From NCBI GenBank assembly GCA_016186495.1, contig JACPLO010000001.1, positions 75,907-110,716 of the forward strand: a stretch of 34,810 nt of DNA, given 5' to 3'. The stretch is from Candidatus Niyogibacteria bacterium (GTDB lineage: Bacteria > Patescibacteriota > Minisyncoccia > JACROR01). The notes beneath the pieces are model-generated. The model saw only the letters and a program-made list of their open reading frames with translations. It searched no databases and was not told the origin of the DNA. Shown here piece by piece: positions 4,323-29,486 of this stretch (positions are counted from its first letter, which is position 1; each line of letters begins with the position of its first letter). The position numbers and the translations under genes are program-made.

Positions 4323-5099
4323 ATGAAGAGGCGGATAAACCAAAAGAAAAACATTATTAGCGGATTAAAAGTGCTTGCTATTATCCAGGCCCGTTCAGGG
4401 TCTAAAAGGGTTCCGAATAAAAATATTAAAAATTTTTTAGGCAAGCCGTTGATCGCTTATACCATTGAACAGGCGCTTTCTTGTGTTTTTGTGGATAGAG
4501 TTGTTGTTGATACTGATTCGCCAAAGATTAAGAAAATTGCCGAAAAATATGGAGCGGAAATCCCGTTTTTGCGTCCTCGGTATTTGGCGACGGATAAGGC
4601 GCAGGGCATAGACAGCGTTTTATATCTGATTAAAAGATTAATGAAAGAGGAAAATTATATGCCTGATTATGTTTTGAATTTACCGCTCGTCGCTCCTCTT
4701 AGGGATAAAGCGGATATTGAGGATTGCTGGAAATTAATCAGACAGACTCGCGCGGATTCTGTCGTAACAGTTTATTCAGGGTCGCCGCGGATATATTATT
4801 TGGATAGCGATCAGAATTTGGCTTTAGTGAACGGCTCAAAAAAAGAAAGGCAAACAACCAACACGCAAGAATGGCGCGCGGGATATTATTTAAATAACGG
4901 AGTTTTTCTTACAAAAACCGACGCCCTTCTAAGGGAAAAAAATGATATTACCAAAAAAACAAAAGCGATGATTTATCCTAAATGGCGTTCCGTGGACATT
5001 GATACTCCGGAAGATTGGGCGATTGCGGAAGTATTATATAAAAATCGGCAAAACATTGTTCGGCGCATTAAACAAATTAAACCAAAATCCAAGCGATAA
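4323..5099 (+). CDS. CMP-nonulosonic acid synthetase (cytidylyltransferase), cassette 1
   Basis: A NeuA/LegF-type enzyme that activates a nonulosonic acid with CTP to give the CMP-sugar. The N-terminal nucleotide loop ARSGSKRVPNKN (about residues 23-34) is the family signature. It is followed by GKPLIAYTIEQAL, VVVDTDSPKI, IPFLRPRYLATD, the NLPLVAPLR region and, near the C-terminus, VDIDTPEDWAIAE, where the Asp residues are metal ligands in this family. The ATG at 4323 gives 258 residues with a Lys/Arg-rich head of about 16 residues; an in-frame GTG at 4371 directly before the first strand is an alternative. No clear Shine-Dalgarno site is seen for either. It opens the packed operon ending at 10592. 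Neu5Ac and legionaminic acid cannot be told apart by sequence; the neighbouring genes favour a legionaminic-type product. Confidence 0.88.
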   Translation: MKRRINQKKNIISGLKVLAIIQARSGSKRVPNKNIKNFLGKPLIAYTIEQALSCVFVDRVVVDTDSPKIKKIAEKYGAEIPFLRPRYLATDKAQGIDSVLYLIKRLMKEENYMPDYVLNLPLVAPLRDKADIEDCWKLIRQTRADSVVTVYSGSPRIYYLDSDQNLALVNGSKKERQTTNTQEWRAGYYLNNGVFLTKTDALLREKNDITKKTKAMIYPKWRSVDIDTPEDWAIAEVLYKNRQNIVRRIKQIKPKSKR

Positions 5100-5111
5100 A
5101 TAAAAATTTTT

Positions 5112-6053
5112 ATGAAAATCGGCTTAATCGGTTTCGGCTCCATCGGCCAGCGGCATTATAAAAATTTACAGAAATATTCCAAGGACATCACTGTGCTGAC
5201 TAAAAGAAAAGATGTTTTTTTGCCAAACATAGTTAAAAATTGGAGGAAATTTTTGAATAACGGCCCTTTTGACGTTATTTTTATCGCTAATGAAACGCAT
5301 AAACATATACCAACCATTAAAAAATGCATTAGTTTGGAGCCAAGGGCGATTTTTGTTGAAAAGCCGCTTTCTCACGACACGAAAGAATTAAGGCGCGTGG
5401 AAACATTGTTAAGGCATAGAAAAATCAGTCTTTGGGTCGGATATTGTTTACAATTTTATAAACCGCTTTTGCGAATCAAGAAAATTATTCAAAGTAAAAA
5501 ACTGGGCAAGATTTATTATATGCGGATTTTTGCGGGAGGAGATCTGCGGGCGTGGAGAAAAAGAGATTATCGCGGATCTTATTCTGCCAAAAAGGAAGAA
5601 GGAGGAGGGGTGATGCTGGATTTGGTCCATGATATTAATTATCCGGCCTGGATTTTAAATGATATTTTAATGCCAAAATCCGCGTTTGCCGGAAAAATAT
5701 CAAAGCTTAATATCAATTCTGAAGATTTGGCGGAAACCGTCATGATTTCAAAAAATAAAGGCGTTGTTGTTTCCGTTCATCAGGATTACTTGACTGTTCC
5801 GGGAGGGCGAATTTGCGAAATAGGCGGCGCAAAAGGCACTTTACGCTGGAATTCCGCGGATGACGCCATAACTATTTTGCTTAAAAAAGGATTTTTTAAG
5901 GAGAAAATTAAGATTGATCGCAATGATATGTATGAGAGGGAGTTGGATTTCTTTTTTCGGCAAATGAAAAGAAGTAAATTTTTTACTAACCTTAATCAAG
6001 CGATTGCGGATATGTTTAACGTGGAATATTTAAAAAAATTGGCGCGAATATGA
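5112..6053 (+). CDS. Gfo/Idh/MocA-family oxidoreductase
   Basis: A 313-residue NAD(P)-dependent sugar oxidoreductase. The N-terminal Rossmann motif is GFGSIGQRH (residues 7-15). The cofactor/catalytic motif EKPLS has Glu83, Lys84 and Pro85. The C-terminal domain contains GGGVMLDLVHDINY, matching the family's GGG...D..H..D pattern, so the usual catalytic Lys and His are both present. It lies 12 bases after the CMP-synthetase and overlaps the next gene by ATGA. Such enzymes often accompany nonulosonate clusters, where they oxidise or reduce a precursor or side chain; the exact substrate here is unknown. The start is the first ATG, right at the beginning of the Rossmann fold. Confidence 0.85.
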   Translation: MKIGLIGFGSIGQRHYKNLQKYSKDITVLTKRKDVFLPNIVKNWRKFLNNGPFDVIFIANETHKHIPTIKKCISLEPRAIFVEKPLSHDTKELRRVETLLRHRKISLWVGYCLQFYKPLLRIKKIIQSKKLGKIYYMRIFAGGDLRAWRKRDYRGSYSAKKEEGGGVMLDLVHDINYPAWILNDILMPKSAFAGKISKLNINSEDLAETVMISKNKGVVVSVHQDYLTVPGGRICEIGGAKGTLRWNSADDAITILLKKGFFKEKIKIDRNDMYERELDFFFRQMKRSKFFTNLNQAIADMFNVEYLKKLARI

Positions 6054-7039
6054 TAAAAAATCCATTAACATTTTTACAAATAGGGCTTGGTTCAATGGGG
6101 AAGCGCCGGATTCGCAATTTAATCGCCAATGGAGAAAAAAATATCATTGGTTTTGATTTTTCCGGTGAACGGCGAAAGGAGGCGGAAGAAAAATACGGCA
6201 TAAAAACCATTGAAGATTTGAATGAAATTTCCGTGAGCGATTTTGACGCGGTAATTATTTCTACTCCGCCGAATCAGCACGGAGATTACATCAGGTTTGC
6301 CTTGCAAAACAAAAAACATTTTTTTACGGAAGTTGCGACAAGCGATGACGGTTATAAAGAAATTTTTAAAAACACGGACACCGATATAGTTGCGGCGCCT
6401 TCGTGCACATTTCGTTATTTTTTGCCTGTCCGGATGATAAAAAAACTGTTGGCTGAAAATAGAATTGGACGCATTCTTGCTTTTCAGCATCACAACGGCC
6501 AATATCTTCCGGACTGGCATCCGTGGGAGGATTACCGCAAAGTATATTTTGCCAAAAAAGAAACAGGCGCTTGCCGCGAGATTTTGCCGTATGACCTTAT
6601 TTGGCTGAATTGGCTTGTAAATTCTGAAATTGACGGGATTTTTGGTTATATAACAAAAGTTTCAGATTTGGATATGGAGGCCGATGATTTAATCATGAGC
6701 AGCGTAAAATATAAAAATAATATTTTCGGCAATATTATTATTGACGCCATTTCCAGAAAACCGTTTGTCACATTGCGGATTTTGGGGGATAAAGGCGTTT
6801 TGGAATGGGATTGTATGGATTCAATAATTAAGCTTTATAACGGCGAATCAAAATCTTCCGAAACAATTAAGGTGCCGAAAGGAAATCCCGAAACCGGATA
6901 TCTTGCTCCCGAAGAGATGTATATTGATGAAATTAAGGCGTTTTTGGACGCCGTGCGCGGCCGGACGAAATATCCGTATTCTTTTGAAGAAGATGTAAAA
7001 AATTTACAAACTCTTTATCAATTAGAATTAAAACAATGA
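6050..7039 (+). CDS. Gfo/Idh/MocA-like protein lacking usual catalytic residues
   Basis: A 329-residue member of the same family as its upstream neighbour, with the Rossmann motif GLGSMGKRR (about residues 13-21) and IISTPPNQHG. The family EKP motif is replaced by EVA (Glu94, Val95, Ala96), so the catalytic Lys is gone. In the later GGG...D..H..D region the sequence reads EILPYDLIWLNWL, placing Tyr where His is expected. It overlaps both neighbours by ATGA, so it is translationally coupled to the apparently intact paralogue at 5112. It could be a non-catalytic partner subunit, a binding protein or an enzyme with altered chemistry. Family membership is clear; loss of activity is inferred from my motif alignment. 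Confidence 0.8.
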   Translation: MIKNPLTFLQIGLGSMGKRRIRNLIANGEKNIIGFDFSGERRKEAEEKYGIKTIEDLNEISVSDFDAVIISTPPNQHGDYIRFALQNKKHFFTEVATSDDGYKEIFKNTDTDIVAAPSCTFRYFLPVRMIKKLLAENRIGRILAFQHHNGQYLPDWHPWEDYRKVYFAKKETGACREILPYDLIWLNWLVNSEIDGIFGYITKVSDLDMEADDLIMSSVKYKNNIFGNIIIDAISRKPFVTLRILGDKGVLEWDCMDSIIKLYNGESKSSETIKVPKGNPETGYLAPEEMYIDEIKAFLDAVRGRTKYPYSFEEDVKNLQTLYQLELKQ

Positions 7040-8100
7040 AGCGCGTTAAAGACATGATTATTATAGGAAAGAAACGAATCGGCAAAGATTATCCTGTTTT
7101 TATAATTGCCGAAGCGGGGGTTAACCACAATGGTTCTTTGCAAATCGCTTTAAAACTTGTTGACGCGGCGGCAAAGGCCGGAGCGGACGCGATTAAATTT
7201 CAGACTTTCAAAGCTGAACAGGTGGCCACGCCGGAAAGTAAAATGGCGAGTTATCAAAAAAAAAACATCGGCAAACAGGAAAGCCAGTTGGAGATGTTAA
7301 AAAAACTGGAATTAAAAGAAGATTTTTACGCACCGATCATTAAAAGATGCCATGAAAAAAATATAATTTTTTTATCAACTCCGCATGGAGGATTTGAAAG
7401 CGTGGATTTTTTGAAGTCGCTTAATGTTCCGGCTTTTAAATTTGGTTCAGGAGACATCAATAATTTTCCCGTGTTGGAATACGCGGCTAAATTTAACAAG
7501 CCGATGATTATTGGCGCGGGTATGGCTTCAATGAAAGAGGCGGCATGCGCGATTGCGGCAATTCAAAAAGCGGGGAATAAAAAAATTATTGTATTGCATT
7601 CCACTTCAAATTATCCCACTTTTCCTTTTGAGGTAAATCTTCGCGCTATGCAAACCATGATGAAAGAGCTTGGTGTTTTGGTCGGATATTCCGATCACAC
7701 ATTGGGTATTCAGATTCCGATTATGGCAGCAACTCTCGGCGCTTCAATAATAGAAAAACATTTTACTTTGGACAGAAAAATGTCCGGGCCGGACCATAAG
7801 GCGTCTTTGGAGCCGAAAGAACTTCGCGCGATGGTAAAAGCGATACGAGATGTTGAGATTATTATGGGCAGTCACGTAAAACAGCCCGTGGCTTCTGAAA
7901 AAAAACATAAGCTGCTGGCCAGAAAAAGCATAGTGGCTGCCGGAAATATTAAAAAAGGCGTTAAAATTAAGGAAAATATGCTGGCAATAAAAAGGCCGGG
8001 TAAGGGCACAGAGCCGAGGTTTTGGAATAAGATTATAGGCAAAAAAACAAAAAAGAATTTAAAAAAAGACCAATTTATCGTTTGGCGCGATTTAATATGA
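7036..8100 (+). CDS. Nonulosonic acid synthase (NeuB/LegI family), cassette 1
   Basis: Condenses phosphoenolpyruvate with a six-carbon amino sugar to give a nine-carbon nonulosonic acid. The TIM-barrel signature runs IIAEAGVNHNGSLQIALKL (residues 23-41), AIKFQTFKAEQV, KFGSGDINN, and GYSDHTLG with metal-binding His221. Then come EKHFTLDR with His242 and GPDHKASLEP. A C-terminal antifreeze-like SAF domain (about residues 293-354) reads RKSIVAAGNIKKG and RPGKGTEPRFWNKIIGKK. The total of 354 residues is normal. The first ATG overlaps the previous stop as ATGA; an in-frame ATG at 7054 is an alternative. It is flanked by the CMP-synthetase operon and the NeuC/LegG-like epimerase, giving synthase, epimerase and activating enzyme in one transcript. 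A legionaminic product is favoured over Neu5Ac only by context. Confidence 0.9.
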   Translation: MKRVKDMIIIGKKRIGKDYPVFIIAEAGVNHNGSLQIALKLVDAAAKAGADAIKFQTFKAEQVATPESKMASYQKKNIGKQESQLEMLKKLELKEDFYAPIIKRCHEKNIIFLSTPHGGFESVDFLKSLNVPAFKFGSGDINNFPVLEYAAKFNKPMIIGAGMASMKEAACAIAAIQKAGNKKIIVLHSTSNYPTFPFEVNLRAMQTMMKELGVLVGYSDHTLGIQIPIMAATLGASIIEKHFTLDRKMSGPDHKASLEPKELRAMVKAIRDVEIIMGSHVKQPVASEKKHKLLARKSIVAAGNIKKGVKIKENMLAIKRPGKGTEPRFWNKIIGKKTKKNLKKDQFIVWRDLI

Positions 8101-9254
8101 GAAAGAAAAGAAAAATTTGCTATATTACGGGAACTCGGGCGGATTACGGATTAATGGAAAACGCTCTTATGAAATTAAACAAGCAGTTTGATTTGTCTTT
8201 GGTGGTAACAGGCGCGCATTTGTTGAAAGAATTCGGTTATACGATTCGGGAGATAGAAAAATCAGGGCTTAAAATAGCGGGCAAGGTGCGAAGCATCGCG
8301 TCCGGAGATACTAATTTGGATATGGCTGTTTCTTTTGGCGCGTGCATTCGCGGAACAGCTAAAATATTGGCAAAAGTGATGCCTGATATTATTTTGGTTT
8401 TAGGAGATAAAATAGAACCTTTGGCGGGAGCGATGGCGGGAGTGGCGTTAAATATTCCGGTGGCTCATATTCACGGCGGAGATCAGGGAGATGGCAAGGC
8501 GCATATTGATGATATGGTCAGGCACGCTATTACTAAATTTGCTCATATTCATTTTCCCGCGACCAAAATAAGCGCTGAAAGGATTATAAAAATGGGAGAG
8601 GAAAAGTGGCGGGTTCACATCATCGGTTCACCGGCTTTGGATGATATTTTTTCGCAGAATTTTTATTCAAAAAAATATATTGAAGAAAAATACGATATTG
8701 ATTTAAAAAAACCGCTGATTCTTGTTATCCAGCATCCGACGCCGTCTCAGGCAGATGAAGCGGGACAGCAGATGAGAGAAACTCTTCAGGCGCTGAGGGA
8801 TATCAATGAAAATACGATTCTGATATACCCGAATGCCGATGCTGGCTGGAAAAATATAATTAAAGCCATAAAAGAATATGAAAAATATGATTTTTTGCGC
8901 GCATATAAAAGTCTTCCGCGCAAAGATTATCTTAGCATTATGAAGTATGCGCGTGTTATGGCAGGCAATTCTTCCAGCGGGACTATAGATACTCCATTAT
9001 TTAAATTGCCGGTTGTGAATATCGGAACAAGAGAATCCATTAGAGAGCATGCCGCTAATAAGATATTCGTTCCGCATAAAAAAGATTTGATAAAGCGGGC
9101 CATAAAAAAAGCTTTGTTTGATAAAAATTTCAGAATGGCCGTGAAAAAATGCAAAAATCCTTACGGCGATGGCCGAGCGGGCTCCAGAATGGCGAATATT
9201 TTTAAAAAAATAAAAATTAACGACAAATTATTAAATAAGCGCCTGACTTATTAA
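8097..9254 (+). CDS. UDP-sugar 2-epimerase (hydrolysing), NeuC/LegG-like
   Basis: A GT-B-fold epimerase that releases UDP while inverting C2 of a UDP-N-acetylhexosamine, supplying the amino sugar for NeuB. Visible motifs are CYITGTRADYGLM at the N-terminus, ILVLGDKIEPLAGA, HIHGGDQGDGKAHIDDMVRHAITK, and near the C-terminus MAGNSSSGTIDTPLFKLP and VVNIGTRE. In this family a HxGGD..G..DD..RH block and the SSG loop bind UDP. Starting at ATG 8097 gives 385 residues and the ATGA overlap seen throughout this operon; the frame extends upstream to a TTG at 8082, which I reject. NeuC (UDP-GlcNAc to ManNAc) and LegG (the 2,4-diacetamido sugar) cannot be separated by eye; the dehydratase and aminotransferase at 12.6-14.8 kb fit LegG. 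Confidence 0.87.
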   Translation: MRKKRKICYITGTRADYGLMENALMKLNKQFDLSLVVTGAHLLKEFGYTIREIEKSGLKIAGKVRSIASGDTNLDMAVSFGACIRGTAKILAKVMPDIILVLGDKIEPLAGAMAGVALNIPVAHIHGGDQGDGKAHIDDMVRHAITKFAHIHFPATKISAERIIKMGEEKWRVHIIGSPALDDIFSQNFYSKKYIEEKYDIDLKKPLILVIQHPTPSQADEAGQQMRETLQALRDINENTILIYPNADAGWKNIIKAIKEYEKYDFLRAYKSLPRKDYLSIMKYARVMAGNSSSGTIDTPLFKLPVVNIGTRESIREHAANKIFVPHKKDLIKRAIKKALFDKNFRMAVKKCKNPYGDGRAGSRMANIFKKIKINDKLLNKRLTY

Positions 9255-19515: not shown

Positions 19516-19537
19516 ATAAGTGAATATATGCTTGCGT

Positions 19538-20560
19538 ATGAATAATTCTAATTTGCTCAAAGATAAAGCGATATTGATTACGGGCGGCACCGGTTCATTT
19601 GGGCAGAAATTTGTTGAATGGCTTTTAAAATTCGGCTCTTGCAAAAAAATCATTATATTCAGCAGAGACGAATTTAAACAGCACCAAATGCGGCAAAGAT
19701 TGTTGAATTATGATAAGAAATTGAGATTTTTTTTGGGGGATGTGCGGGATTTATCCAGATTGCAGCGCGCTTTTAACGGTGTTGATATTGTGGTGCACGC
19801 CGCCGCATTAAAGCAGGTGCCGGCTTTGGAATATAACCCGTTGGAGGCGATTAAGACCAATATTTTGGGAACGCAAAATGTTGTTGATGCGGCGATTGAC
19901 CAAAAAGTTTTAAAGGCTCTTTTAGTTTCCACCGATAAGGCGGCTTACCCGGCTAATTTATACGGCTCTACAAAACTTTGCGCGGAGAAGTTGTTTGTTT
20001 CCGGCGGCGCGTATGCCCCCGGCGTAGACAGAGCGACTAAATTTAGCGTAGTCAGATATGGGAACGTTATTGGCAGTCGGGGCAGTATTGTGGAAACACT
20101 TTTAAATAACGATAAAAACAGCGAAGTGCACATAACTGATCATGAAATGACTCGATTTTGGATTGATTATGATCGTGCTATTGAATTGGTGATATTCGCT
20201 TTGAATGAAATGGTCAGCGGAGAGATATTCGTTCCTAAGATTCCGAGTATGAAGCTCGTTGATTTGTTTGATGCGTTGGTTCCGCATGCTCCAAGAAAAA
20301 CCATTGGCATAAGATCCGGCGAGAAAATCCATGAAATCTTGTTAACTGCGGAAGAAGCAAAGCATTCCGTGGAAGTGGGCAGGTATTTTGTGATTTTGCC
20401 GGAATTTCCGCATTGGACCGCTGTTAAACGATATGAGAAATATCTTAAAAAAGGCAAAGAATTAAAGCCAAAATTTTGTTTTACGAGCCATACTAATCCA
20501 GATTGGATTACCGCAAATGATTTGAAAAAAATTATTAAAAATAATATAGGATTAATTTAG
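19538..20560 (+). CDS. pseB: UDP-N-acetylglucosamine 4,6-dehydratase (inverting), PseB-like
   Basis: A 340-residue SDR closely resembling PseB/FlaA1, which dehydrates UDP-GlcNAc and inverts C5 in the first step of pseudaminic acid synthesis. It has ILITGGTGSFGQKFV, IFSRDEFKQHQMRQRL, FLGDVRD, HAAALKQVPALEYNPLEA and LVSTDKAAYPANLYGSTK. The catalytic Asp133, Lys134 and Tyr142 fall one position from the numbering I recall for FlaA1 (132, 133, 141). The C-terminus has IRSGEKIHEILLTAEEA. The frame opens at GTG 19520; ATG 19538 is preferred because the family starts just before the Rossmann motif. It ends the 12.6-20.5 kb gene group. Its pathway partners appear to lie on the opposite strand at 27.2-29.5 kb. 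Confidence 0.88.
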   Translation: MNNSNLLKDKAILITGGTGSFGQKFVEWLLKFGSCKKIIIFSRDEFKQHQMRQRLLNYDKKLRFFLGDVRDLSRLQRAFNGVDIVVHAAALKQVPALEYNPLEAIKTNILGTQNVVDAAIDQKVLKALLVSTDKAAYPANLYGSTKLCAEKLFVSGGAYAPGVDRATKFSVVRYGNVIGSRGSIVETLLNNDKNSEVHITDHEMTRFWIDYDRAIELVIFALNEMVSGEIFVPKIPSMKLVDLFDALVPHAPRKTIGIRSGEKIHEILLTAEEAKHSVEVGRYFVILPEFPHWTAVKRYEKYLKKGKELKPKFCFTSHTNPDWITANDLKKIIKNNIGLI

Positions 20561-20634
20561 TGATTTCTTGATTGCTCAAATTAACGCCTCTTGCGAGCAA
20601 AAGCTGTTAAAGTAATTTTAGGAGTTGCAGATAA

Positions 20635-20712
20635 ATGGATGTTGTTGTTTTTTTTCTTAAAGAGTGTTATTTTAGCAGAAGGATCTTTTATAAATTTATC
20701 TTGATAAGATAA
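20635..20712 (+). CDS. Possible 25-residue leader peptide
   Basis: A small frame starts at ATG 20635, 10 bases after an AGGAG (20620-20624), and stops at 20710-20712, two bases before the Shine-Dalgarno of the next gene. It encodes a hydrophobic and basic peptide starting MDVVVFFLKECYF. Position and spacing suit a translated leader, but nothing else supports it and it may be chance. Confidence 0.2.
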   Translation: MDVVVFFLKECYFSRRIFYKFILIR

Positions 20713-20727
20713 GAAAGGAGGGTGAAT

Positions 20728-21819
20728 ATGATTCGCGTAAAAATTTATGGCGCCGGATCAATCGGCAACCATTTAGCTTATGCTTGTCGCCAAAAAAATT
20801 GGGATGTTTCAGTGGTAGATAGGGATACGCAGGCGCTGAAGCGCATGAAGGAAGAAATCTATTCTTCGCGTTATGGAGCATGGGATTCAGAGATAAAACT
20901 TTTTACTCTTCAAGATCAGCCTCGACGAAAATTTGACGCAATTTTTATCGGTACCCCGCCGGATACTCATCTGGCAATTGCTATTGATGTGTTGAAGCAG
21001 GAAGCCCCGCGTGTATTACAAATTGAAAAGCCATTATGTTCTCCGACCCTTGAGGGTCTTGCGGAATTTATGCGGGAAACAAGGCATCATAGCGATACCG
21101 CGATCATTGTTGGCTTCAATCATCTTTTGGCAGAAAATACAGAGCTACTAAATTTATTTATCCATAAAAGAAATCTTGGTTCACTTGTGTCAATCGATGC
21201 GGAGATCAGAAGCAGTTGGAAAAATATTTTTCTTGCGCATCCATGGCTTGCTGGCCCGGAAGACACATATCTTGGCTATTGGAAACGCGGAGGGGGCGCA
21301 GGCGGAGAACATTGCCACGCGTTAAATCTTTGGCAATATTTTGCTCATCAGTGCGGGCGCGGCAAGGTTACCGAAGTAAGCGGCACATTTGAATACATAC
21401 ACAATGAGAAAATTTATTACGATCGCCTTTGTTTTTTAACATTAAAAACAGACAGCGGGATGGTCGGACGAGTAGCGCAAGATGTGGTCGCTCAGCAAAA
21501 AAGCAAGGTTGCGCGCCTTTGGTTTGAACGGGGCATTGCGGAATGGCATAATGATGCAACCAAAACCACTGATCAGATTATTTTTCAGGCTTATGGAAAA
21601 GGCCGCGAAGAGATTGTGATTAAAAAAAAACGGATTGATGAATTTTTTCGAGAGGTTGTCCATATCAATCGTCTATTAGACGGAACAGAAAAGATCGAGA
21701 ATTCTCCTGTCCGTTTAGAACGCGGCATAGACACAATGCTGGTTTTGGCAGCCGGCCATAAATCATACGCTAATCGTAAGGTTGTGGCGGTTGATTATAG
21801 TATTTATTCTCTTCTTTAA
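20728..21819 (+). CDS. Gfo/Idh/MocA-family oxidoreductase, cassette 2
   Basis: A 363-residue NAD(P)-dependent oxidoreductase. The N-terminal Rossmann motif is IYGAGSIGNHLAYA, then IFIGTPPDTHL and QIEKPLCSP with the EKP catalytic Lys. The second-domain segment GGGAGGEHCHALNLW keeps the His of the family pattern, so catalysis looks intact. ATG 20728 lies 6 bases after AGGAGG (20716-20721); the GTG at 20722 overlaps that site and is rejected. It precedes a second CMP-synthetase, phosphatase, kinase and synthase fusion, but is separated from them by the palindromic terminator at 21838. Substrate unknown; oxidation or reduction of the cassette 2 sugar is the likely role. Confidence 0.83.
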   Translation: MIRVKIYGAGSIGNHLAYACRQKNWDVSVVDRDTQALKRMKEEIYSSRYGAWDSEIKLFTLQDQPRRKFDAIFIGTPPDTHLAIAIDVLKQEAPRVLQIEKPLCSPTLEGLAEFMRETRHHSDTAIIVGFNHLLAENTELLNLFIHKRNLGSLVSIDAEIRSSWKNIFLAHPWLAGPEDTYLGYWKRGGGAGGEHCHALNLWQYFAHQCGRGKVTEVSGTFEYIHNEKIYYDRLCFLTLKTDSGMVGRVAQDVVAQQKSKVARLWFERGIAEWHNDATKTTDQIIFQAYGKGREEIVIKKKRIDEFFREVVHINRLLDGTEKIENSPVRLERGIDTMLVLAAGHKSYANRKVVAVDYSIYSLL

Positions 21820-21837
21820 AAAAGTAAGAAAGTAAAT

Positions 21838-21867
21838 AAAAACACTCAGCAATTGCTGAGTGTTTTT
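21838..21867 (+). terminator. Perfectly palindromic terminator
   Basis: A 30-base perfect palindrome: AAAAACACTCAGCAA (21838-21852) pairs with TTGCTGAGTGTTTTT (21853-21867). The physical loop needs at least 3-4 of the central bases, leaving an 11-13-bp stem flanked by A and T runs. Its symmetry could let it work in both directions. Confidence 0.88.
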
Positions 21868-21949
21868 AATTTGACAATTTGTCTATTTTAATTTAATTTA
21901 ATTAGCAGAAACCTTAAAAACTTTATATTTAAGAAAGGAGAAAATTGAT

Positions 21950-22702
21950 ATGGGCGGGCAAAAAGTTAAAAATAACGTCTTATGCGTTATTCAGGCGCGC
22001 GGCGGTTCAAAAGGATTGCCTGGTAAAAACATCCGTATTTTGGCTGGAAAGCCGCTGATCGCCTGGACGATTGAAGCGGCGCTGACAGCTTGCCGCATTG
22101 ATCGCGTGATTGTCAGCACAGAAAATCAGGAGATCGCGGCGGTCGCTCGAGCATACGGAGCAGAAGTTCCGTTTATGCGTCCGGAAAAACTTGCTCTAGA
22201 CAATGTTAAAAGCATCGGCCTTTTAAATCATGCCTTGCTGTGGTTCATGGAACATGAGAATTATTATCCCAATACGGTAGTCCAGCTTAAGCCGACTAAT
22301 CCTCTGCGAACGGCGCAACACATTGATTTGTGTGTTGAAAAATTCTTTGCTAATCCGGGGATTGATTCATTAATTACTGTGACAAGATCATCGGCGCATC
22401 CTTTGAAGATGTGGAAATTTACAGAGAATAGCATAATCATCCCATTTTTATCGGGAGAAATTTTTAGCCTAAAAGAGGCGGTGAAGCTCCCGCGACAAAT
22501 GTTACCGCAAGTCTTTGTGCAAAATTCTTGCGTGAATGTCATATGCTCCAAGACCATCTTGGAAAAACACTCATCTATCGGATCGCGCGTTATCGGAATT
22601 ATAATGGAGCGGGAAGACGCCATAAACATAGATGATATTTTGGATTTTAAGATCGCCGAGATGATGATGAACGAGCGCATTACAGGAGGTGGACAGCTAT
22701 GA
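21950..22702 (+). CDS. CMP-nonulosonic acid synthetase (cytidylyltransferase), cassette 2
   Basis: A 250-residue NeuA-family enzyme with VIQARGGSKGLPGKNIR (nucleotide loop, about residues 11-27), GKPLIAWTIEAAL, RVIVSTENQEIAAVARAYG, PFMRPEKLALD and VQLKPTNPLRTAQHID. The C-terminal block is DAINIDDILDFKIAE. It differs clearly from the other two synthetases in the window: it has KGLPGKN rather than KR.P.KN and ends without the VDIDT or VQDID motif, reading NIDD instead. AAAGGAG lies about 8 bases before the ATG. It overlaps the phosphatase gene by ATGA. It should activate the cassette 2 acid with CTP; which acid is not known. Confidence 0.87.
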   Translation: MGGQKVKNNVLCVIQARGGSKGLPGKNIRILAGKPLIAWTIEAALTACRIDRVIVSTENQEIAAVARAYGAEVPFMRPEKLALDNVKSIGLLNHALLWFMEHENYYPNTVVQLKPTNPLRTAQHIDLCVEKFFANPGIDSLITVTRSSAHPLKMWKFTENSIIIPFLSGEIFSLKEAVKLPRQMLPQVFVQNSCVNVICSKTILEKHSSIGSRVIGIIMEREDAINIDDILDFKIAEMMMNERITGGGQL

Positions 22703-23355
22703 GAACAAATATTTTTCTTTTAAGACATGCTCAAAGTCAGGCAAATATGCTTAATATTGTGCAGGGCAGAGGGCTTTTGATACCCCTTACGGAAAAAGGC
22801 GCAGAGCAGGCTCGGAATGTTGCGAAGGCGTTAAAAAATTTAATGTTTGACCGAATTTTTACAAGCACCGCTTTGCGCGCCGTTCATACGGCAGCGGCAA
22901 TCAGAAAATATCATCCAACTCCTTATGAAGAAATTTTTGAGCTTAACGAACTTTCAAAAGGGAATGCGGAGGGTATGTCAATTGATAATTTTGCGAAACG
23001 TTATCCGGAGATTATTGAACAATGGAGCCGTGGTGTTGATGTCCGGTCGGATGGAGGAGAAAATTTTTCTGATGTTGAAGCGAGAGTTATTCCGGTATTA
23101 GAGCGGCATCTTATTGAGCATGCCGGAAAAAATCTTCTTTATGTGATCCATGGTAACGTCATCCGGGTTATTATTGGATACATTCTCGGTGTGCCGTATG
23201 GACGGCGTGCGCGCATTCAACAAGATTATTGCGCGTTGACAGCGTTGGAATACGATAATTCAACGAAGCGTTGGCTTGTCAAATTTATCAATCAGGCGTT
23301 ATTCAATGATTGGAACAGAGGAGAAATGTTATGGCCGAGAAAACGGAGAAGATAA
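22699..23355 (+). CDS. Histidine phosphatase (phosphoglycerate-mutase-like) superfamily protein
   Basis: A 218-residue histidine phosphatase. The phosphohistidine motif is LLRHAQSQAN (Arg-His near residues 8-9, Asn conserved), followed by DRIFTSTALRAVHTA (second Arg), EIFELNELSKGNAEGM (acid) and VIHGNVIRVII (second His). All four active-site positions are present, so it should be active. AGGAGGT lies about 8 bases before the ATG, and the gene overlaps both neighbours. Between a CMP-synthetase and a kinase and near a NeuB-type synthase, it could remove the phosphate from a nonulosonate-9-phosphate. In other organisms a HAD phosphatase does this. The substrate is inferred from context. Confidence 0.86.
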   Translation: MRTNIFLLRHAQSQANMLNIVQGRGLLIPLTEKGAEQARNVAKALKNLMFDRIFTSTALRAVHTAAAIRKYHPTPYEEIFELNELSKGNAEGMSIDNFAKRYPEIIEQWSRGVDVRSDGGENFSDVEARVIPVLERHLIEHAGKNLLYVIHGNVIRVIIGYILGVPYGRRARIQQDYCALTALEYDNSTKRWLVKFINQALFNDWNRGEMLWPRKRRR

Positions 23356-24452
23356 GATTTATTGCTCTTGCCAAAAAAGAAGCAAAAGAAGTCTTGCAAA
23401 TTATTACGGAGAATTATGAAGAGGAATTTCATTCACCGGTGCGTATTGAGCGATTTTTAGAAGAAATCGCATCTAGCAGAGTGTATTGCATTACTTTTCG
23501 TAATGGTTGGCGAGCTGTTTTGAAGCAATCGTTTTGGTATTCCGGCAAAGGGGCTATTGAGGCCATTGAGAAGGCGCAGGAAGTAAGTCAGGCGCTTCGT
23601 CTTCAAGGAGTTCCTCTGCCAATGGCGTATCTTACTTTAAAAGGCAAATATACTGCCGGATATAATGGCGATCAAATAACGCTTTTAGAATATATTGAAG
23701 GCGAATATTTCACCGCTGATGACCGGCAGTTTATTGAAGCGGGAAGGGCTTTAGCCGTATTTCACCGAGAAGGAGAAGCATTTCTTCGGAAATATCCGAT
23801 TGAGCGTGCCATGATCGCAGAAAAAATTCCCGTAGAAAAACCTTATGAAGAGTCGCGTGTGATTTATGATAAATTGCGGCGTGATTTTTTAACAGAACAC
23901 CAATGTTCTGTTCCGGATGTTTGCGCCGCGGTGCGCGATCATATTCACATATTTGATCAAACGATAAAGATGCTGGATGGATCGGGTATCAGTAATCGCA
24001 AACTTTCTTCTGGAATCGTGCATAACGATTTTAACGTGAAAAATTGTTTTTTCAAAAAGGATGGAGCATTCAGCTGTTTTATTGATACGGACCAACTTGG
24101 CGTTGCCCCTTTTGTTTGGGATGTCGGCAATACACTGCTCTCATTTTTATCAAGTATATCAAGCACATCAAGAAGCAATGTAAACTATGAACATTCTGCT
24201 GAACTTTTTCTCGCCGCGTATCACCGAGAACATCCATTGCCGCTAAATGAATATTTACTCATTATCGCCGCGGCGGTAAGATGGAATATGATGCGGATAT
24301 TGCGCAGTTTAAGGCGCCATCACTATGAAAATGATCGGCTTGTTAATCTTTTGCCGAAGATTAAAAGCCGGCTCATCGCCCGAATAATACAAACTCCGCA
24401 AATATTTTCATTTTTAGATGAGAATTGGCTTAGAAAGAAAATAGTTATTTAA
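23331..24452 (+). CDS. Aminoglycoside-phosphotransferase-fold kinase
   Basis: A 373-residue small-molecule kinase of the APH/choline-kinase fold. The N-lobe has AVLKQSFWY with the likely ATP Lys, and LLEYIEGEYF at the hinge. The catalytic loop is HNDFNVKN (His231, Asp233, Asn238), and the magnesium motif is IDTDQ with Asp252 and Asp254. The catalytic residues are complete. The frame extends to TTG 23310, but ATG 23331 has GAGGAG about 7 bases upstream and is chosen; it overlaps the phosphatase gene by 25 bases. Terminator 24455 follows the stop directly. In this setting a sugar kinase supplying a 6-phosphorylated hexose or hexosamine to the synthase is attractive, but choline or another small molecule is possible. 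Confidence 0.8.
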   Translation: MAEKTEKIRFIALAKKEAKEVLQIITENYEEEFHSPVRIERFLEEIASSRVYCITFRNGWRAVLKQSFWYSGKGAIEAIEKAQEVSQALRLQGVPLPMAYLTLKGKYTAGYNGDQITLLEYIEGEYFTADDRQFIEAGRALAVFHREGEAFLRKYPIERAMIAEKIPVEKPYEESRVIYDKLRRDFLTEHQCSVPDVCAAVRDHIHIFDQTIKMLDGSGISNRKLSSGIVHNDFNVKNCFFKKDGAFSCFIDTDQLGVAPFVWDVGNTLLSFLSSISSTSRSNVNYEHSAELFLAAYHREHPLPLNEYLLIIAAAVRWNMMRILRSLRRHHYENDRLVNLLPKIKSRLIARIIQTPQIFSFLDENWLRKKIVI

Positions 24453-24454
24453 GA

Positions 24455-24478
24455 AAGCGGCGCAATGCGCCGCTTTTA
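24455..24478 (+). terminator. Rho-independent terminator
   Basis: AAAGCGGCGC (24455-24464) pairs with GCGCCGCTTT (24468-24477) around a 3-base loop. The GC core is 7 bp. It begins just after the kinase stop. Confidence 0.88.
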
Positions 24479-24605
24479 ATTTTCAATTCAACAGTAAAAT
24501 ATACTAAAAAAAATTAATGTCAATATAGTCAAGATATTTACTCCGTGCTATTTTTGGTATTAGATAATTCAGCATCATTAACAATTAAAAAGGAGGCATA
24601 TTAAT

Positions 24606-26129
24606 ATGATTGCGCCTGGGAATGACAGGTTTGATTTTAATAATCTGTTTATTTTTGAAATGGCAAATAATCATCAAGGCAGTATTAAGCACGGCTTGCG
24701 CATTATTCGCGAGATGGCGAAGGTGGCGAAGGTGGCCGGGGTGCGTGCCGCGATTAAGCTGCAATTTCGCGATTTAGATTCTTTTATTCATCCAAAGCAT
24801 AAAGAATGCTCTGACAACAAGCACATTCCGCGTTTTCTTGCCACGCGGCTTTCTGAAGAAGAATTTGGCGCGTTGGTGAATGAAATTAAGCGCCAAAGAT
24901 TAATCAGTATGGCAACGCCGTTTGATGAGTTATCCGTTGATATGGCTGAGCGTCTCGGCGTGGAAATACTAAAAATTGGCAGTTGTTCGGCAACTGATTG
25001 GCCGCTTTTGGAAAGAGTGGTAAAGGCGGGAAAGCCGGTTATATGTTCTACCGGCGGATTGAATGTCAGCCAAATAGATAGGATAGTCAGCTTTTTTCAA
25101 CATCGGGGAGCGCGCTTTGCATTAATGCATTGTGTGGCAATTTATCCTACTCCGGTTGAAAAAATGCGGTTAGGCAGGATTGAGCAACTTTGTAAGCGAT
25201 ATCCGGGCGTGACAGTAGGATTTTCTACGCATGAAGATCCGAATAATTTTAACGTTGTTCAGATTGCTTATGCCAAGGGTGCGCGCATATTTGAAAAGCA
25301 TGTCGCTGTTCCTACTAAAGCATTTAAGAGTAATGCGTATTCCGCGAATCCTAAACAAGCAGCTAAATGGCTGGCGGCGTTAAATGACGCGATGTCTATG
25401 TGCGGCAATGAAGAAGATTTAGCCGAATCATTATCATTAAATTCGCTGATGCGAGGAGTCTATGCTAAAAAAAATATTACTATTGGCAGTAAGCTTTCTC
25501 GAGAGAATGTTTACTTTGCCATACCGCTTTTGAATCGGCAATTGGCGAGCGGTGAATGGAATGCGAATATGGTTGCAGGCCGCGCTTATGCTGTTGACGA
25601 AGCTATTTTCTTTGAAGCAGCAAGTTATTATGCGGCAGAATTTAAGCATTTGATTCCTAATTTTATCCATCAGTTAAAGGGGATTATTCACGAAGCTGGC
25701 GTGCCGGTTGGGCCGACTCCGGAAATTGAGCTTTCGCACCACTATGGATTAAAACATTTTCTTGAATGGGGCGTAGCAATTATAGACTGCATCAATCGTG
25801 AATATTGCAAAAAAATTTTGATTATGCTCGCCGGACAGAAACATCCTATTCATTTCCATACAAAAAAAGAAGAGGCCTTTCAGGTATTGTACGGAGAACT
25901 GATTGTAGAAATGGAAGACAGAGAAAGAATTCTTTATCCCGGGGATGTTTTAATGGTTCCGCGCGGCGCGTGGCATAGTTTTTACGCTTGTAATGGGGAT
26001 GTTATTTTTGAGGAAATATCCACTACCCATTATAACGATGATTCGTTTTACGCCGATCCATCCATAAATAAGATCGCCCGTGACGAGAGAAAGACTCGTC
26101 TTGTAAATTGGGGCAGACATCAAATTTAA
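24606..26129 (+). CDS. Nonulosonic acid synthase fused to SAF and cupin domains, cassette 2
   Basis: A 507-residue three-domain protein. Residues 13-265 are a NeuB-type barrel: IFEMANNHQGS, AAIKLQFRDLD, LKIGSCSATDWPL, GFSTHEDPN with metal-type His209, and FEKHVAVP with His232. The GPDH loop seen in the two other NeuB copies is absent, so the substrate may differ. About 280-335 is SAF-like (RGVYAKKNITIGSKLS, LASGEW). About 365-480 is a cupin resembling D-lyxose isomerase: KHPIHFHTKKEEAF supplies His416, His418 and Glu423, and RGAWHSF supplies His457. AGGAGG lies 9 bases before the ATG, and its own terminator follows. It could isomerise a sugar and condense it with phosphoenolpyruvate. The fold calls are sound; the reaction is inference. 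Confidence 0.85.
   Translation: MIAPGNDRFDFNNLFIFEMANNHQGSIKHGLRIIREMAKVAKVAGVRAAIKLQFRDLDSFIHPKHKECSDNKHIPRFLATRLSEEEFGALVNEIKRQRLISMATPFDELSVDMAERLGVEILKIGSCSATDWPLLERVVKAGKPVICSTGGLNVSQIDRIVSFFQHRGARFALMHCVAIYPTPVEKMRLGRIEQLCKRYPGVTVGFSTHEDPNNFNVVQIAYAKGARIFEKHVAVPTKAFKSNAYSANPKQAAKWLAALNDAMSMCGNEEDLAESLSLNSLMRGVYAKKNITIGSKLSRENVYFAIPLLNRQLASGEWNANMVAGRAYAVDEAIFFEAASYYAAEFKHLIPNFIHQLKGIIHEAGVPVGPTPEIELSHHYGLKHFLEWGVAIIDCINREYCKKILIMLAGQKHPIHFHTKKEEAFQVLYGELIVEMEDRERILYPGDVLMVPRGAWHSFYACNGDVIFEEISTTHYNDDSFYADPSINKIARDERKTRLVNWGRHQI
24716..24733 (+). repeat. Two tandem 9-base units inside the synthase gene
   Basis: The unit GGCGAAGGT occurs twice in a row in frame, encoding the Ala-Lys-Val repeat in MAKVAKVAGV. 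Compared with the cassette 1 synthase (DAAAKAGADA) the segment is longer, so an in-frame duplication is plausible. Confidence 0.6.
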
Positions 26130-26162
26130 CCCGTGTTGCTTTGTAACGCGGGTTTTTTTTTA
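26128..26162 (+). terminator. Rho-independent terminator
   Basis: AACCCGTGTT (26128-26137) pairs with AACGCGGGTT (26145-26154) with one G-U pair and a 7-base loop, followed by a long T tract. It overlaps the synthase stop codon. Confidence 0.88.
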
Positions 26163-26218
26163 TTTGTTTTGGGTGCCCAGTGGTGATAATCTTAATTTAT
26201 ATTTAATATTTGCGATTT

Positions 26219-27115
26219 ATGAATAACGCAAACGCTGTGAAAAAAACTGGAGAGCAGTTGGGATTATCCTTTTTTAAGGATGAATTATTTTACGAATTCC
26301 ACCCAAGAATTTATGAGGGTGATAAATGGAAGGTGTTTGTAAATGAACAGAACGATTTTGCTGTTATTTATCCTAAACTGGAAGTTAATTATTCTGCTTA
26401 TGTGCCAAGAAGCCAGAAATTTGGCATTAAAGATTCTAAACTTCAAATAGTATATTTAAATAACAGAATTGATAAAATAAATTTTTTTTTGCAGGAAAAA
26501 AAATTGAACCCGTCATCTATTTTAGAAATTGGCGCGAATGATGGAACTTTTTTGAAATTACTCTCTAATGAATTTTTTGGAGTGCAATTTTGCGGCGTGG
26601 AGTTGAGCGCATCTCATCGTAAATTGGCGCATGAGAAAGATCTTATGATCTACAAAAAGATCGAAGATTGTCGGCAGAGATCTTTTGACGTAATCTGTAT
26701 GTTTCATACTTTTGAGCATTTTACCAACCCAGTTACGGCACTTGGGGAGATGCGCAAGTTTTTATCCAAAAAAGGAATTTTTATCATAGAAATTCCATCG
26801 CTTACTGATCCATTATTGAGCGTTTACGGCATAGAGGCATTTAAGGATTTTTATTTTCAAACCCAGCATCCTTTTGTTTATTCTTCATCATCGTTGTCTA
26901 AATTATTGGAAGGAGCAGGATATGATAAGATAACAATTTTGCCATTTCAGAGATATGGTTTAGCAAACCATATGAATTGGTTAAAGAATAATAAACTGGG
27001 CGCTTTGCCGTTTATTGCGGAACATTTTACCTTTATTGATAGGGAGTATCGTAAAAAGTTAGAAGAGCTTGGTAAAACAGATACTATTTTTGCGTGTTTT
27101 CGGCCAAAAAAATAG
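26219..27115 (+). CDS. Class I SAM-dependent methyltransferase
   Basis: A 298-residue methyltransferase. The SAM-binding motif is ILEIGANDGTFLKLL (near residue 100), followed by the acidic strand CGVELSASH and FDVICMFHTFEHFTNP, typical of the Methyltransf_23 type; IFIIEIPSL follows. The N-terminal 95 residues are not recognised and may bind the substrate. The frame reaches TTG 26210 but ATG 26219 is preferred; no strong Shine-Dalgarno site is seen, unlike the genes just upstream. It lies between the cassette 2 terminator and the convergent minus-strand operon, so it is probably transcribed separately. Methylation of a sugar or polysaccharide end is suggested by its surroundings only. Confidence 0.83.
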   Translation: MNNANAVKKTGEQLGLSFFKDELFYEFHPRIYEGDKWKVFVNEQNDFAVIYPKLEVNYSAYVPRSQKFGIKDSKLQIVYLNNRIDKINFFLQEKKLNPSSILEIGANDGTFLKLLSNEFFGVQFCGVELSASHRKLAHEKDLMIYKKIEDCRQRSFDVICMFHTFEHFTNPVTALGEMRKFLSKKGIFIIEIPSLTDPLLSVYGIEAFKDFYFQTQHPFVYSSSSLSKLLEGAGYDKITILPFQRYGLANHMNWLKNNKLGALPFIAEHFTFIDREYRKKLEELGKTDTIFACFRPKK

Positions 27116-27126
27116 CAGTTTTTTTT
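27106..27126. terminator. Weak AT hairpin between convergent genes
   Basis: Seven A (27106-27112) can pair with the T run at 27119-27126 around TAGCAG. It lies between the methyltransferase stop and the converging minus-strand operon, and could work in both directions, but an all-AT stem is weak. Confidence 0.25.
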
Positions 27127-27175
27127 ATTTATTTTCAAAATGAGTAGCGTAATATTTGAATCAAGCAAGTCTTAT

Positions 27176-27868
27176 TTAAAGAAAATCTTTTAATAACTTA
27201 TATTTAATTTCCGCAACTTTCCAATCTTGTTCATTATCTATATCTTGGACTTCAGTCTCCGGTATTTCTAAAGGCACAGTAAATCTTGGAAAGAGCCTTT
27301 TTTGCTTAAAAATGACGTCAGTTTTTAAGAAATAGAATTGGCCGCAGTCATGGTAAGCGGGTTCCAGATCTTGGGAGCGGGAATTATAATTTTTAGGCCA
27401 AAACATTTTTGCAATTCCATTTTTTATTTTAAGAGCCCTCTGTATGGGATAGCTGAACTTCACAACTGGCACTATTGCTTCTGCGTTTTTTTCTATCATC
27501 AGCTGTTTGGCTAACTTCAATCTTTCTGCCGTGATAAACGGGGCGGTCGGGAATATGCAGCAAATATATTTAAATTCTTTCCCGCGTTTTTTATACTCCG
27601 TTATCACCTCTTCAAGGACGGGAATAATCATAGCCATGTCGGTTGAGTTTTTTTTGGATCTTAAAAACGGGACGCTTGCTTTAAAAGATTTTGCCAGCTT
27701 GGCTGTTTTTTTGTCGTCTGTTGAGACCATCACTTCAATAAAACATTCGGATTTTATTGCCGCGTCTATGGAATATTTAATAATTGGCTGCCCGGCAAAG
27801 TTTTTAATGTTTTTTCCGGGTATTCTTTTGCTTCCGCCTCTGGCTGGGATTATTGCTAGAATTTTCAT
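27176..27868 (-). CDS. pseF: Pseudaminic acid cytidylyltransferase-like (PseF), cassette 3
   Basis: A 230-residue CMP-transferase of the PseF branch. Besides the nucleotide loop IIPARGGSKRIPGKNIKNF it has features I associate with PseF: SYPIQRALKI, YNSRSQDLEPAYHDCGQFYF and the C-terminal VQDIDNEQDWKVAE. It should form CMP-pseudaminic acid or a close relative. It is the last gene of the minus-strand operon, starting 14 bases after the GNAT stop. The first ATG begins exactly at the family's N-terminus, and no strong Shine-Dalgarno site is present. Among the three synthetases here it is the one with the most specific assignment. Confidence 0.85.
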   Translation of the reverse strand: MKILAIIPARGGSKRIPGKNIKNFAGQPIIKYSIDAAIKSECFIEVMVSTDDKKTAKLAKSFKASVPFLRSKKNSTDMAMIIPVLEEVITEYKKRGKEFKYICCIFPTAPFITAERLKLAKQLMIEKNAEAIVPVVKFSYPIQRALKIKNGIAKMFWPKNYNSRSQDLEPAYHDCGQFYFLKTDVIFKQKRLFPRFTVPLEIPETEVQDIDNEQDWKVAEIKYKLLKDFL

Positions 27869-27882
27869 GATTAAATGCGCGG

Positions 27883-28419
27883 TTATTTTTTATATTCTTT
27901 GTTTAATAAAGAATAAATGTGCGAGTTCCAGTATTTGCCTTCTTTAAAACAATTGTCCCTTAATTCGCCGTCCTTTTTAAAATTTAATTTTTTGGTGAAA
28001 AAATCTATTTTCTTTTTATCAAATTCATAAAGTTCCATCCATATTTTGTGAAGATTCAAATTGTTAAACCCATAATCCAATAACAATTTTGCTGCCTCCA
28101 AAGCATATCCTTTAGTATCAATATATTCTTCGTTTAATCCAATATAAAAGGAAAGGTCTGCGGAGCGGGAAATCCAGTTAATATAAACAAGCCCGCAGAC
28201 ACCGACTGAAAGTTTGTCTTTAAGTCTTTCAATTATAAACATAAAGTCATTCTGGCTGCCGACGACAATATTTTCAAACCATTTTTTTTGATTATCTAAA
28301 TTTAATTCTCTGAATTCTCTAAAATTTTTTCTAAATTTTGGAATATTCCTCCAGTCCTTAAGCATGGAAAGATCTTCTCTTTCTACAGCCCTTAATCCAA
28401 CTAATTTTGACTTAATCAT
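27883..28419 (-). CDS. GNAT N-acetyltransferase, PseH-like
   Basis: A 178-residue RimJ/RimL-type GNAT. The N-terminus VGLRAVEREDLSMLKDWRN is the usual first strand and helix. Then come GVCGLVYINWISRSADLSFYIG and the acetyl-CoA segment GYALEAAKLLLDYGF. The tail FKKDGELRDNCFKEGKYWNSHIYSLL is typical of sugar-amine GNATs such as PseH. It overlaps the NeuB-type gene by ATGA. Acetylation of the 4-amino group of the pseudaminic precursor (PseH step) fits the neighbours, but a GNAT acting on another amino sugar is possible. Confidence 0.82.
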   Translation of the reverse strand: MIKSKLVGLRAVEREDLSMLKDWRNIPKFRKNFREFRELNLDNQKKWFENIVVGSQNDFMFIIERLKDKLSVGVCGLVYINWISRSADLSFYIGLNEEYIDTKGYALEAAKLLLDYGFNNLNLHKIWMELYEFDKKKIDFFTKKLNFKKDGELRDNCFKEGKYWNSHIYSLLNKEYKK

Positions 28420-29486
28420 ATAAAATCGTTTAATGAGATTAATTCCCCCTTTTTTATGTCTTTCATAATTTTCTTGCCTATTATTTCCGGTGCCTTATAT
28501 GGCGGCAAACCGCCTTCAGGAATCGGCCTTAGAAAATCAAAATCATTGTAGTCTAAAATAGAACCTGCTTTAAGATCAAATTTAGCTCTAATTGCTCTTC
28601 TTTGCAATATAACGGATTCTTTCTCATTTTCTTCCACAATTTTTAACCCATCATTCCTAAGAGCTAAAAATAATTCATTTGCTCTATCAATCATTTCTCT
28701 CCAAGTTTTAGGATTCATAGCGAACTTATGATCCGGGCCGTCTCTATTGTTGTCATCGGTAAAGTGCTTCTCAAATACTGTAGCGCCCAATGCGATTGCG
28801 CCCAAGACCGTGGAATGGCTTGAGGTGTGGTCAGACAATCCTAAAATAATATCCGGGTATTCCTGTTTAAAGCTTTTCAGAACATTTAAGTTGATATATT
28901 TAAAATTTTCGGCGCTGGCAGTATAATTCGTATTGCACTGCAAAAGAATAATGTCGTTTACGTGTTTTTTTAGCGTGTTCATAGCTCTTTTAACGTCTTC
29001 TATAGATGAAGCTCCGGTTGAGATTATTACTGGTTTTTTCTTTTTAGCTATGTATTCAATAATGTCAAGCCAGGTGATATCGCCGGAACCTATTTTATAG
29101 ACACTGACAAAAGGTTCCACTTTGTCCACCGATTCAAAGTCATAAGGAGAGGTAAAATATTCTAAACCGACTTCGTCGCATTTCTTTTTTAGCTTTTTCG
29201 TCCAATCAAACGGGATGCTCGCGTCTTTATATGTTTCATAAACCGATTTTTTCCATGAGGCCTGATGCGACATTTTGCGGTTTAAGGATTCAAAGCCGGA
29301 TTTACTCACGATTTTATCAGCTTGAAAATTTTGAAATTTGGCCGCATGTGCGCCGGATTCTTTGGCTAATTCAATCAGTTTATATGCTCTGTTAATGTCA
29401 CCGTCATGATTTGCCGCAATATCGGCGATAAAAAATAACGGACCGTTTTGGCTTATGCTGATATTCCCAATTTTAATTTTTTTCAT
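28416..29486 (-). CDS. Nonulosonic acid synthase (NeuB/PseI family), cassette 3
   Basis: A 356-residue synthase condensing phosphoenolpyruvate with an amino sugar. Landmarks are FFIADIAANHDGDINRAYKL, AAKFQNFQADKIV, YKIGSGDITWLDI, LGLSDHTSSH with His220 and FEKHFTDDNNRDGPDHKF with His241. A SAF domain near the C-terminus reads RRAIRAKFDLKAGS and LRPIPEGGLPPYKAPEIIG. The use of IADIAANHDG rather than IAEAGVNHNG separates it from the cassette 1 enzyme. Between an RmlD-like SDR (14-base overlap) and a PseH-like GNAT it is assigned to the pseudaminic-type route, although the sequence alone only secures the NeuB family. Confidence 0.88.
   Translation of the reverse strand: MKKIKIGNISISQNGPLFFIADIAANHDGDINRAYKLIELAKESGAHAAKFQNFQADKIVSKSGFESLNRKMSHQASWKKSVYETYKDASIPFDWTKKLKKKCDEVGLEYFTSPYDFESVDKVEPFVSVYKIGSGDITWLDIIEYIAKKKKPVIISTGASSIEDVKRAMNTLKKHVNDIILLQCNTNYTASAENFKYINLNVLKSFKQEYPDIILGLSDHTSSHSTVLGAIALGATVFEKHFTDDNNRDGPDHKFAMNPKTWREMIDRANELFLALRNDGLKIVEENEKESVILQRRAIRAKFDLKAGSILDYNDFDFLRPIPEGGLPPYKAPEIIGKKIMKDIKKGELISLNDFI

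Follow-up and report, generated by a model that had tools for sequence, protein, structure and literature searches.

Organization of the locus and domain architecture of the fusion protein

The window analyzed here, a stretch of 34,810 nucleotides from Candidatus Niyogibacteria bacterium, contains on its forward strand a gene (24606–26129) for a 507-aa protein in which a NeuB-type synthase is followed by a lyxose-isomerase-like domain, as identified from the open reading frame, Pfam, homologues, and an AlphaFold2 model. The ATG start codon is preceded by the Shine-Dalgarno sequence AAGGAGG (24590–24596, +). Three domains were distinguished, all on the forward strand. A NeuB-type, PEP-condensing TIM barrel (residues 1–271; 24606–25418) was assigned by the Pfam NeuB profile, fold matches, and conservation; a diverged SAF (antifreeze-like) domain (about residues 272–341; 25419–25628) was recognized by superposition with 4ipj/1xuu; and a D-lyxose-isomerase-like cupin domain (residues 345–507; 25638–26126) was assigned by PF07385 and fold matches. 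The Pfam NeuB match covers residues 39–269 (2e-42), with a score for the NeuB family PF03102 of 145.7 bits against a cut-off of 22.1, and at the C-terminus Cupin_2 and Lyx_isomer each score above their cut-offs. No Pfam SAF match was obtained in the fusion protein despite the SAF-like fold between barrel and cupin. Both profile and fold match place the start of the isomerase-like part at approximately residue 345, i.e. ahead of the cupin barrel proper. The AlphaFold2 model of the whole protein had a mean pLDDT of 92.9 and that of the cupin alone 89.7. Thus, the combination of a NeuB-type barrel and a lyxose-isomerase-like C-terminal cupin in a single reading frame, as proposed in the initial annotation, was borne out by Pfam, homologues, and predicted fold.

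The fusion gene stands alone between two hairpins, both of which fold well below shuffled sequence. The first (24453–24477, +; −18.6 kcal/mol, z −4.75, weak T tract) is predicted to close the upstream unit, the second (26128–26154, +; −17.2 kcal/mol, z −6.12, strong T tract) to act as intrinsic terminator of the fusion gene. The upstream genes, on the same strand, encode a GFO/IDH/MocA oxidoreductase (20728–21819) of the family usually located ahead of the fusion (1.9e-142), a CMP-sugar cytidylyltransferase (CTP_transf_3; 21950–22702) of the family usually found near it (8.5e-80), and, according to Pfam, a histidine phosphatase (22699–23355) and an APH-type kinase of putative role in the pathway (23310–24452). 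Downstream lies a class I methyltransferase gene (26210–27115, +) matching the MT23 family often located beside the fusion (2.8e-62). The host genome comprises 653,689 bases in 12 contigs and has three NeuB genes, all within the window. Roughly 25 kb of this 654-kb genome thus hold three different NeuB synthases and three CMP-transferases (4323–9254, 19520–27868, and 28416–29486).

Distribution of the fusion

Among 192 genomes of the same phylum that were searched, the full-length fusion occurred in four others, with 46–53% identity. In species genomes, at least 485 relatives were confirmed, and the 80 retained among them all match over nearly the whole protein. Carriers include Uhrbacteria, Magasanikbacteria, Lachnospiraceae, Alphaproteobacteria, and Desulfobulbaceae; Niveispirillum irakense, Desulfofustis glycolicus, and Thalassospira are cultured representatives. 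The homologue search of viral contigs yielded 19 fusion loci, while phage and plasmid records gave distant partial matches only, none covering >80% of the query. All conservation counts refer to an alignment of 97 full-length fusion members, drawn from marine viral contigs as well as numerous bacterial phyla, and the profile comparison to a second one of 92 cupin domains. The 97 full-length homologues with their invariant sites rule out a chance resemblance, and recurrence of the fusion across many phyla rules out a local gene-fusion artefact. One copy (L040:9683-11389) is missing most of the SAF-like segment; its N-terminus is lengthened by a long Arg-rich stretch, probably because the reading frame was called too far upstream.

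In viral loci, the signature cupin is always fused (59/59), the sole three cupin-only matches being of another cupin type. The barrel subfamily also occurs without the cupin, in 37 of 80 viral loci, one of which is cut by a contig end.

Conserved gene neighbourhood

Neighbours within 3 kb were counted at those 50 genome loci whose flanks reach 3 kb or more on both sides of the fusion. A CMP-transferase was found at 44, an oxidoreductase at 35, and a HAD phosphatase at 29 of these. The arrangement is often tight: an oxidoreductase gene ends directly upstream of the fusion in 49 of 79 loci, and a HAD gene begins directly downstream in 35 loci with a median gap of 4 nt. All three were missing from the 3 kb around the cupin-less viral loci (0/31), a comparison that sets genomes against viral contigs, although most fused viral loci also have the CMP-transferase. 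The cupin-less viral loci are instead accompanied by a TPP enzyme and a short-chain dehydrogenase. These sister barrels (L239, L247, L251, L270, L275, and L280, among others) lie in a tight cassette with a dehydratase, the TPP enzyme (31/31), and the short-chain dehydrogenase, often together with a DHQ-synthase-like gene, which looks like a sugar pathway.

The window shares the oxidoreductase, CMP-transferase, and methyltransferase families with other loci. No HAD gene lies beside the fusion in the window, where the histidine phosphatase and the APH kinase take its place; the histidine phosphatase is a possible stand-in for the HAD enzyme. By phmmer, neither of these two proteins had homologues beside the fusions of 79 genome loci. 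According to Pfam, an APH kinase accompanies the fusion of one relative (L034) together with a CMP-transferase, a HAD protein, and an oxidoreductase. In some Lachnospiraceae, genes for flagellin, FliS, FlgN, and an MptE-like/Maf-type protein are located near the fusion; Maf proteins transfer nonulosonates to flagellin. Several IMG/VR contigs of putative viral origin (L042:2516-13918, L045, L047–L049, L054, and L058) display a recurrent cassette of glycosyltransferases, a SAF-less NeuB, and a CMP-transferase, followed by the NeuB-cupin fusion. In L042 (13919-15505) and relatives, this cassette is adjoined by a gene fusing a nucleotidyltransferase to an APH-type kinase.

The cupin half is of the lyxose-isomerase type

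Structure prediction and comparison with D-lyxose isomerase, which the initial annotation had put forward as a check, identified D-lyxose isomerases as the best solved matches of the cupin. With the cupin alone, 7nzo ranked first (Z 19.5, rmsd 1.7 Å over 145 aligned residues), followed by 2y0o (19.1) and 3kmh (17.8), and the group as a whole spanned Z 17.5–19.5. L-ribose isomerases came next at Z 15–16, and all other listed cupins reached at most 14.7. The Foldseek ranking likewise opened with lyxose isomerases. On the cupin domain alone PF07385 scored 42.6 bits against a cut-off of 20.8, the match including the N-terminal helices of the lyxose-isomerase fold, and the profile was matched by 92/92 members at E 1e-3 or better. 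The score for the NCBIfam D-lyxose/D-mannose isomerase equivalog NF051472 was below the cut-off (33.1 of 350 bits). As another candidate, the type II phosphomannose isomerase cupin (PF01050) was matched by only 6/92 members (best E 1.2e-4), and both PMI-type and RmlC-type cupins fitted less well than lyxose isomerase in profile and fold.

The active site is similarly preserved. The full metal set claimed for the cupin, His416, His418, Glu423, and His457, was found in place and corresponds to the Mn ligands H75, H77, E88, and H143 of the lyxose isomerase TsLI. Likewise, K403, K421, and E470 align with the substrate and catalytic residues K62, K86, and E156. The segment from K403 to E423 (25812–25874, +) thereby contains metal ligands and substrate lysines of an isomerase-like site, and that from H457 to E470 (25974–26015, +) the fourth metal ligand and the equivalent of the catalytic Glu. 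Seven of the eight sugar and metal contacts of TsLI are kept, K403 and H416 in 96/97 and H418, K421, E423, H457, and E470 in 97/97 members. The exception is D163, essential in the E. coli enzyme, which in a gapless alignment falls on the variable N477 (N, K, D, R, or P); two residues on, D479 is invariant. One may speculate that the change at this position goes with another distal group, for instance a phosphate.

Compared to the D-lyxose isomerases of B. subtilis (2y0o), Thermofilum (7nzo), and E. coli (3kmh), all PF07385, the cupin thus has fold and metal set in common as well as the equivalents of K62, K86, E88, and E156, and its HxHxxKxE spacing is that of the E. coli chain. Unlike these enzymes, it sits behind a synthase and has the D163 equivalent out of register.

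The synthase half lacks the N-acetyl-placing arginine

The barrel retains its metal-type residues H209 and H232, as previously noted (96/97 and 97/97 members, respectively), and also K51, Q53, K123, S126, S207, and E230; all PEP and metal residues are kept at 97/97 or 96/97. The nearest fold was 3g8r (Z 40.2), an SpsE-like protein of Chromobacterium violaceum from structural genomics which shares barrel and SAF-like domain at about 45% identity. Judged from its crystallized chain of 350 aa alone, it has no cupin, and we know of no functional test of this protein. N. meningitidis NeuB followed at Z 32.8; its structures (4ipj/1xuu) superpose on residues 7–340 of the model, hence including the SAF-like domain.

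Two features of the synthase half have changed. The initial annotation had pointed out that the fusion lacks the GPDH loop present in both other synthases of the window, and this holds: the loops read SGPDHKAS (gene at 7036–8100, +) and DGPDHKFA (28416–29486, −) in the latter two, while FKSNAYSA stands there in the fusion, with N243, Y245, and S246 each conserved in 97/97 members. In addition, ManNAc is bound in N. meningitidis NeuB by Arg314 of the SAF domain, a residue that helps position the N-acetyl group of this sugar (PMC6795526). The Arg314 column was set from the R314A and R314K entries (4ipi and 4ipj), whose printed alignments disagree at a single residue. The position is taken by I306 in the fusion and by Met (82), Ile (9), or Phe (6) among the 97 members, Arg occurring in none; 3g8r also has Phe. 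Arg is kept in both other NeuBs of the window and in six of seven comparable NeuBs of 345–386 aa, the seventh having Gly. Loss of Arg314 points to an acceptor without an N-acetyl group. However, R314 is also lost in the cupin-less sister barrels, which reside in TPP-enzyme cassettes, so its loss alone does not mean Kdn.

These changes bear on the idea of an ordinary synthase for an N-acylated nonulosonate (Neu5Ac, Leg, or Pse) with the cupin as an accessory. The protein belongs to the NeuB family and a PseB-like gene lies upstream in the window (19520–20560), but the fusion is far below the equivalog cut-offs for N-acetylneuraminate synthase (TIGR03569, 134.8 of 399.65 bits) and pseudaminic acid synthase (TIGR03586, 127.9 of 340.25 bits), and neither the GPD loop nor Arg314 is retained. 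We therefore regard such an activity as highly improbable.

Proposed function and alternative explanations

Given the occurrence of the fusion in dozens of unrelated bacteria, the protein probably generates the sugar that it uses as substrate and goes on to form an unusual acidic sugar for the surface, a reading drawn from sequence and predicted structure. We favor a bifunctional isomerase-synthase, with a probability of roughly 0.6. In the first step, the metal-dependent cupin would act on a ketose to give an aldose with manno configuration at C2; fructose 6-phosphate or a similar phosphorylated ketose is the most likely starting compound. The NeuB-type barrel would then join this non-N-acetylated aldose to PEP, yielding a 3-deoxy-ulosonate, of which Kdn 9-phosphate is the simplest candidate; here the reaction class is taken from homology, and we infer the substrate. 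Subsequently, the phosphate would be removed by a phosphatase, the HAD enzyme in most members and probably the histidine phosphatase in the window, and the neighbouring cytidylyltransferase would activate the product as a CMP sugar destined for a surface glycan or, in some Lachnospiraceae, probably for flagellin. The phosphatase adjoining the fusion in most members suggests that the intermediates are phosphorylated. Kdn itself as the product is a tentative assignment, somewhat less likely than not.

That one polypeptide performs two successive steps, as initially proposed, gained indirect support from the lyxose-isomerase fold, the conserved site, the loss of Arg, the neighbours, and the Kdn precedent in Serratia described below, the one catalytic Asp out of register being a point against it. 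The proposed mannose-type acceptor formed from a ketose has strong indirect support, and phosphorylated intermediates extend the earlier proposal. Two observations are not matched by the bifunctional reading: the oxidoreductase has no assigned step, and the window has no HAD gene at the fusion. Furthermore, no type I PMI was detected by search of the host's own genome, which does encode a PGI/PMI-type protein (PGI/PMI_C). Mannose 6-phosphate may hence not need the cupin, and the cupin cannot be called its sole source.

The two activities might also serve a different sugar, the cupin supplying a pentose (lyxose- or arabinose-type, 5-phosphate) for an eight-carbon, Kdo-like ulosonate, or the sugar being modified by oxidoreductase and methyltransferase. 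The Thermofilum lyxose isomerase strongly prefers a C5 sugar, and KdsB-type models score on the CMP-transferase; with an oxidoreductase directly upstream in 49 loci and a methyltransferase common, the product may be more elaborate than plain Kdn. On the other hand, the PseF model outscores KdsB on the CMP-transferase, the nearest barrels are NeuB/SpsE and not Kdo8P synthase, and the Serratia precedent is Kdn, leaving this version unlikely. Cupins often serve as binding modules, and the existence of a sister barrel group without the cupin would also fit a non-catalytic domain for sensing of sugar or product, oligomerization, or regulation. Yet hardly any variation is seen at the metal ligands, the two substrate lysines, or the catalytic Glu, a stricter conservation than structure alone would demand, and presence of the cupin tracks the gene context (CMP-transferase at 44/50 fused genome loci versus 0/31 cupin-less viral loci), which makes a non-catalytic role quite unlikely. 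Since cupins catalyze many reactions and D163 is not kept in register, the domain could instead act on the product or another substrate, e.g. as epimerase or dehydratase. We consider this very unlikely, as lyxose isomerase is a clearly better match than other cupins in both fold and site.

If the bifunctional isomerase-synthase is correct, many genes resembling those for sialic acid synthases would in fact open another pathway, one independent of amino sugars, and sialic acid predictions would have to be revised for hundreds of genomes. A clean one-enzyme test is offered by the protein, as its two catalytic sites are separately removable. More broadly, it is possible, albeit doubtful, that the fusion represents a widespread route by which one protein leads from a ketose phosphate of central metabolism to a Kdn-type ulosonate phosphate. 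Occurring in many bacterial phyla and on marine viral contigs, such a route would feed surface glycans and, probably, the modification of flagellin, and would have arisen in parallel to a second, unrelated NeuB-isomerase fusion.

Comparison with known systems

NeuB and lyxose isomerase are known families, and fusion of NeuB to an isomerase has been described once before, in that case with an isomerase of another fold. In the open-access literature, to which our search was mostly confined, we found no account of a fusion of NeuB with a lyxose-isomerase cupin, and Serratia NeuB was the only related precedent.

The route from Man-6-P via Kdn-9-P and Kdn to CMP-Kdn is established in B. thetaiotaomicron (BT1714) (PMC6200933; reviewed in PMC13214540), as are the synthase and CMP-transferase steps in Prymnesium parvum (PMC6200933). 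The fusion loci share with this pathway the order of synthase, phosphatase, and CMP-transferase; adjacent phosphatase and CMP-transferase genes are present at the family level, the phosphatase being of the histidine type in the window. The B. thetaiotaomicron and Prymnesium Kdn-9-P synthases differ in that they start from mannose 6-phosphate, and we found no mention of a lyxose-isomerase cupin fused to them in these papers.

The NeuB of Serratia marcescens KL1/KL2 carries a COG1082 isomerase/epimerase domain; these strains, which require neuB for sialic acid production, display a Kdn:Neu5Ac ratio of about 20:1 (PMC9000132). The extra domain was left unexplained in that study. Proteins of about 626 aa with the architecture NeuB-SAF-AP_endonuc_2 and a CMP-transferase nearby are common in the same phylum as the window's host (L012:1438-3315; L018:613-2595, −; L146–L153). 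Ser occupies the Arg314 position in 11/11 proteins of 625–670 aa from this phylum, two of which (L012 and L018) were assigned the architecture by Pfam, and no HAD gene lies beside the eight inspected loci of this type. Like the cupin fusion, the Serratia KL1/KL2 NeuB and the L012 and L018 proteins join NeuB to a sugar isomerase domain, but theirs is a TIM barrel. With the cupin, two different isomerase folds are now seen joined to NeuB, the first having been described in Serratia.
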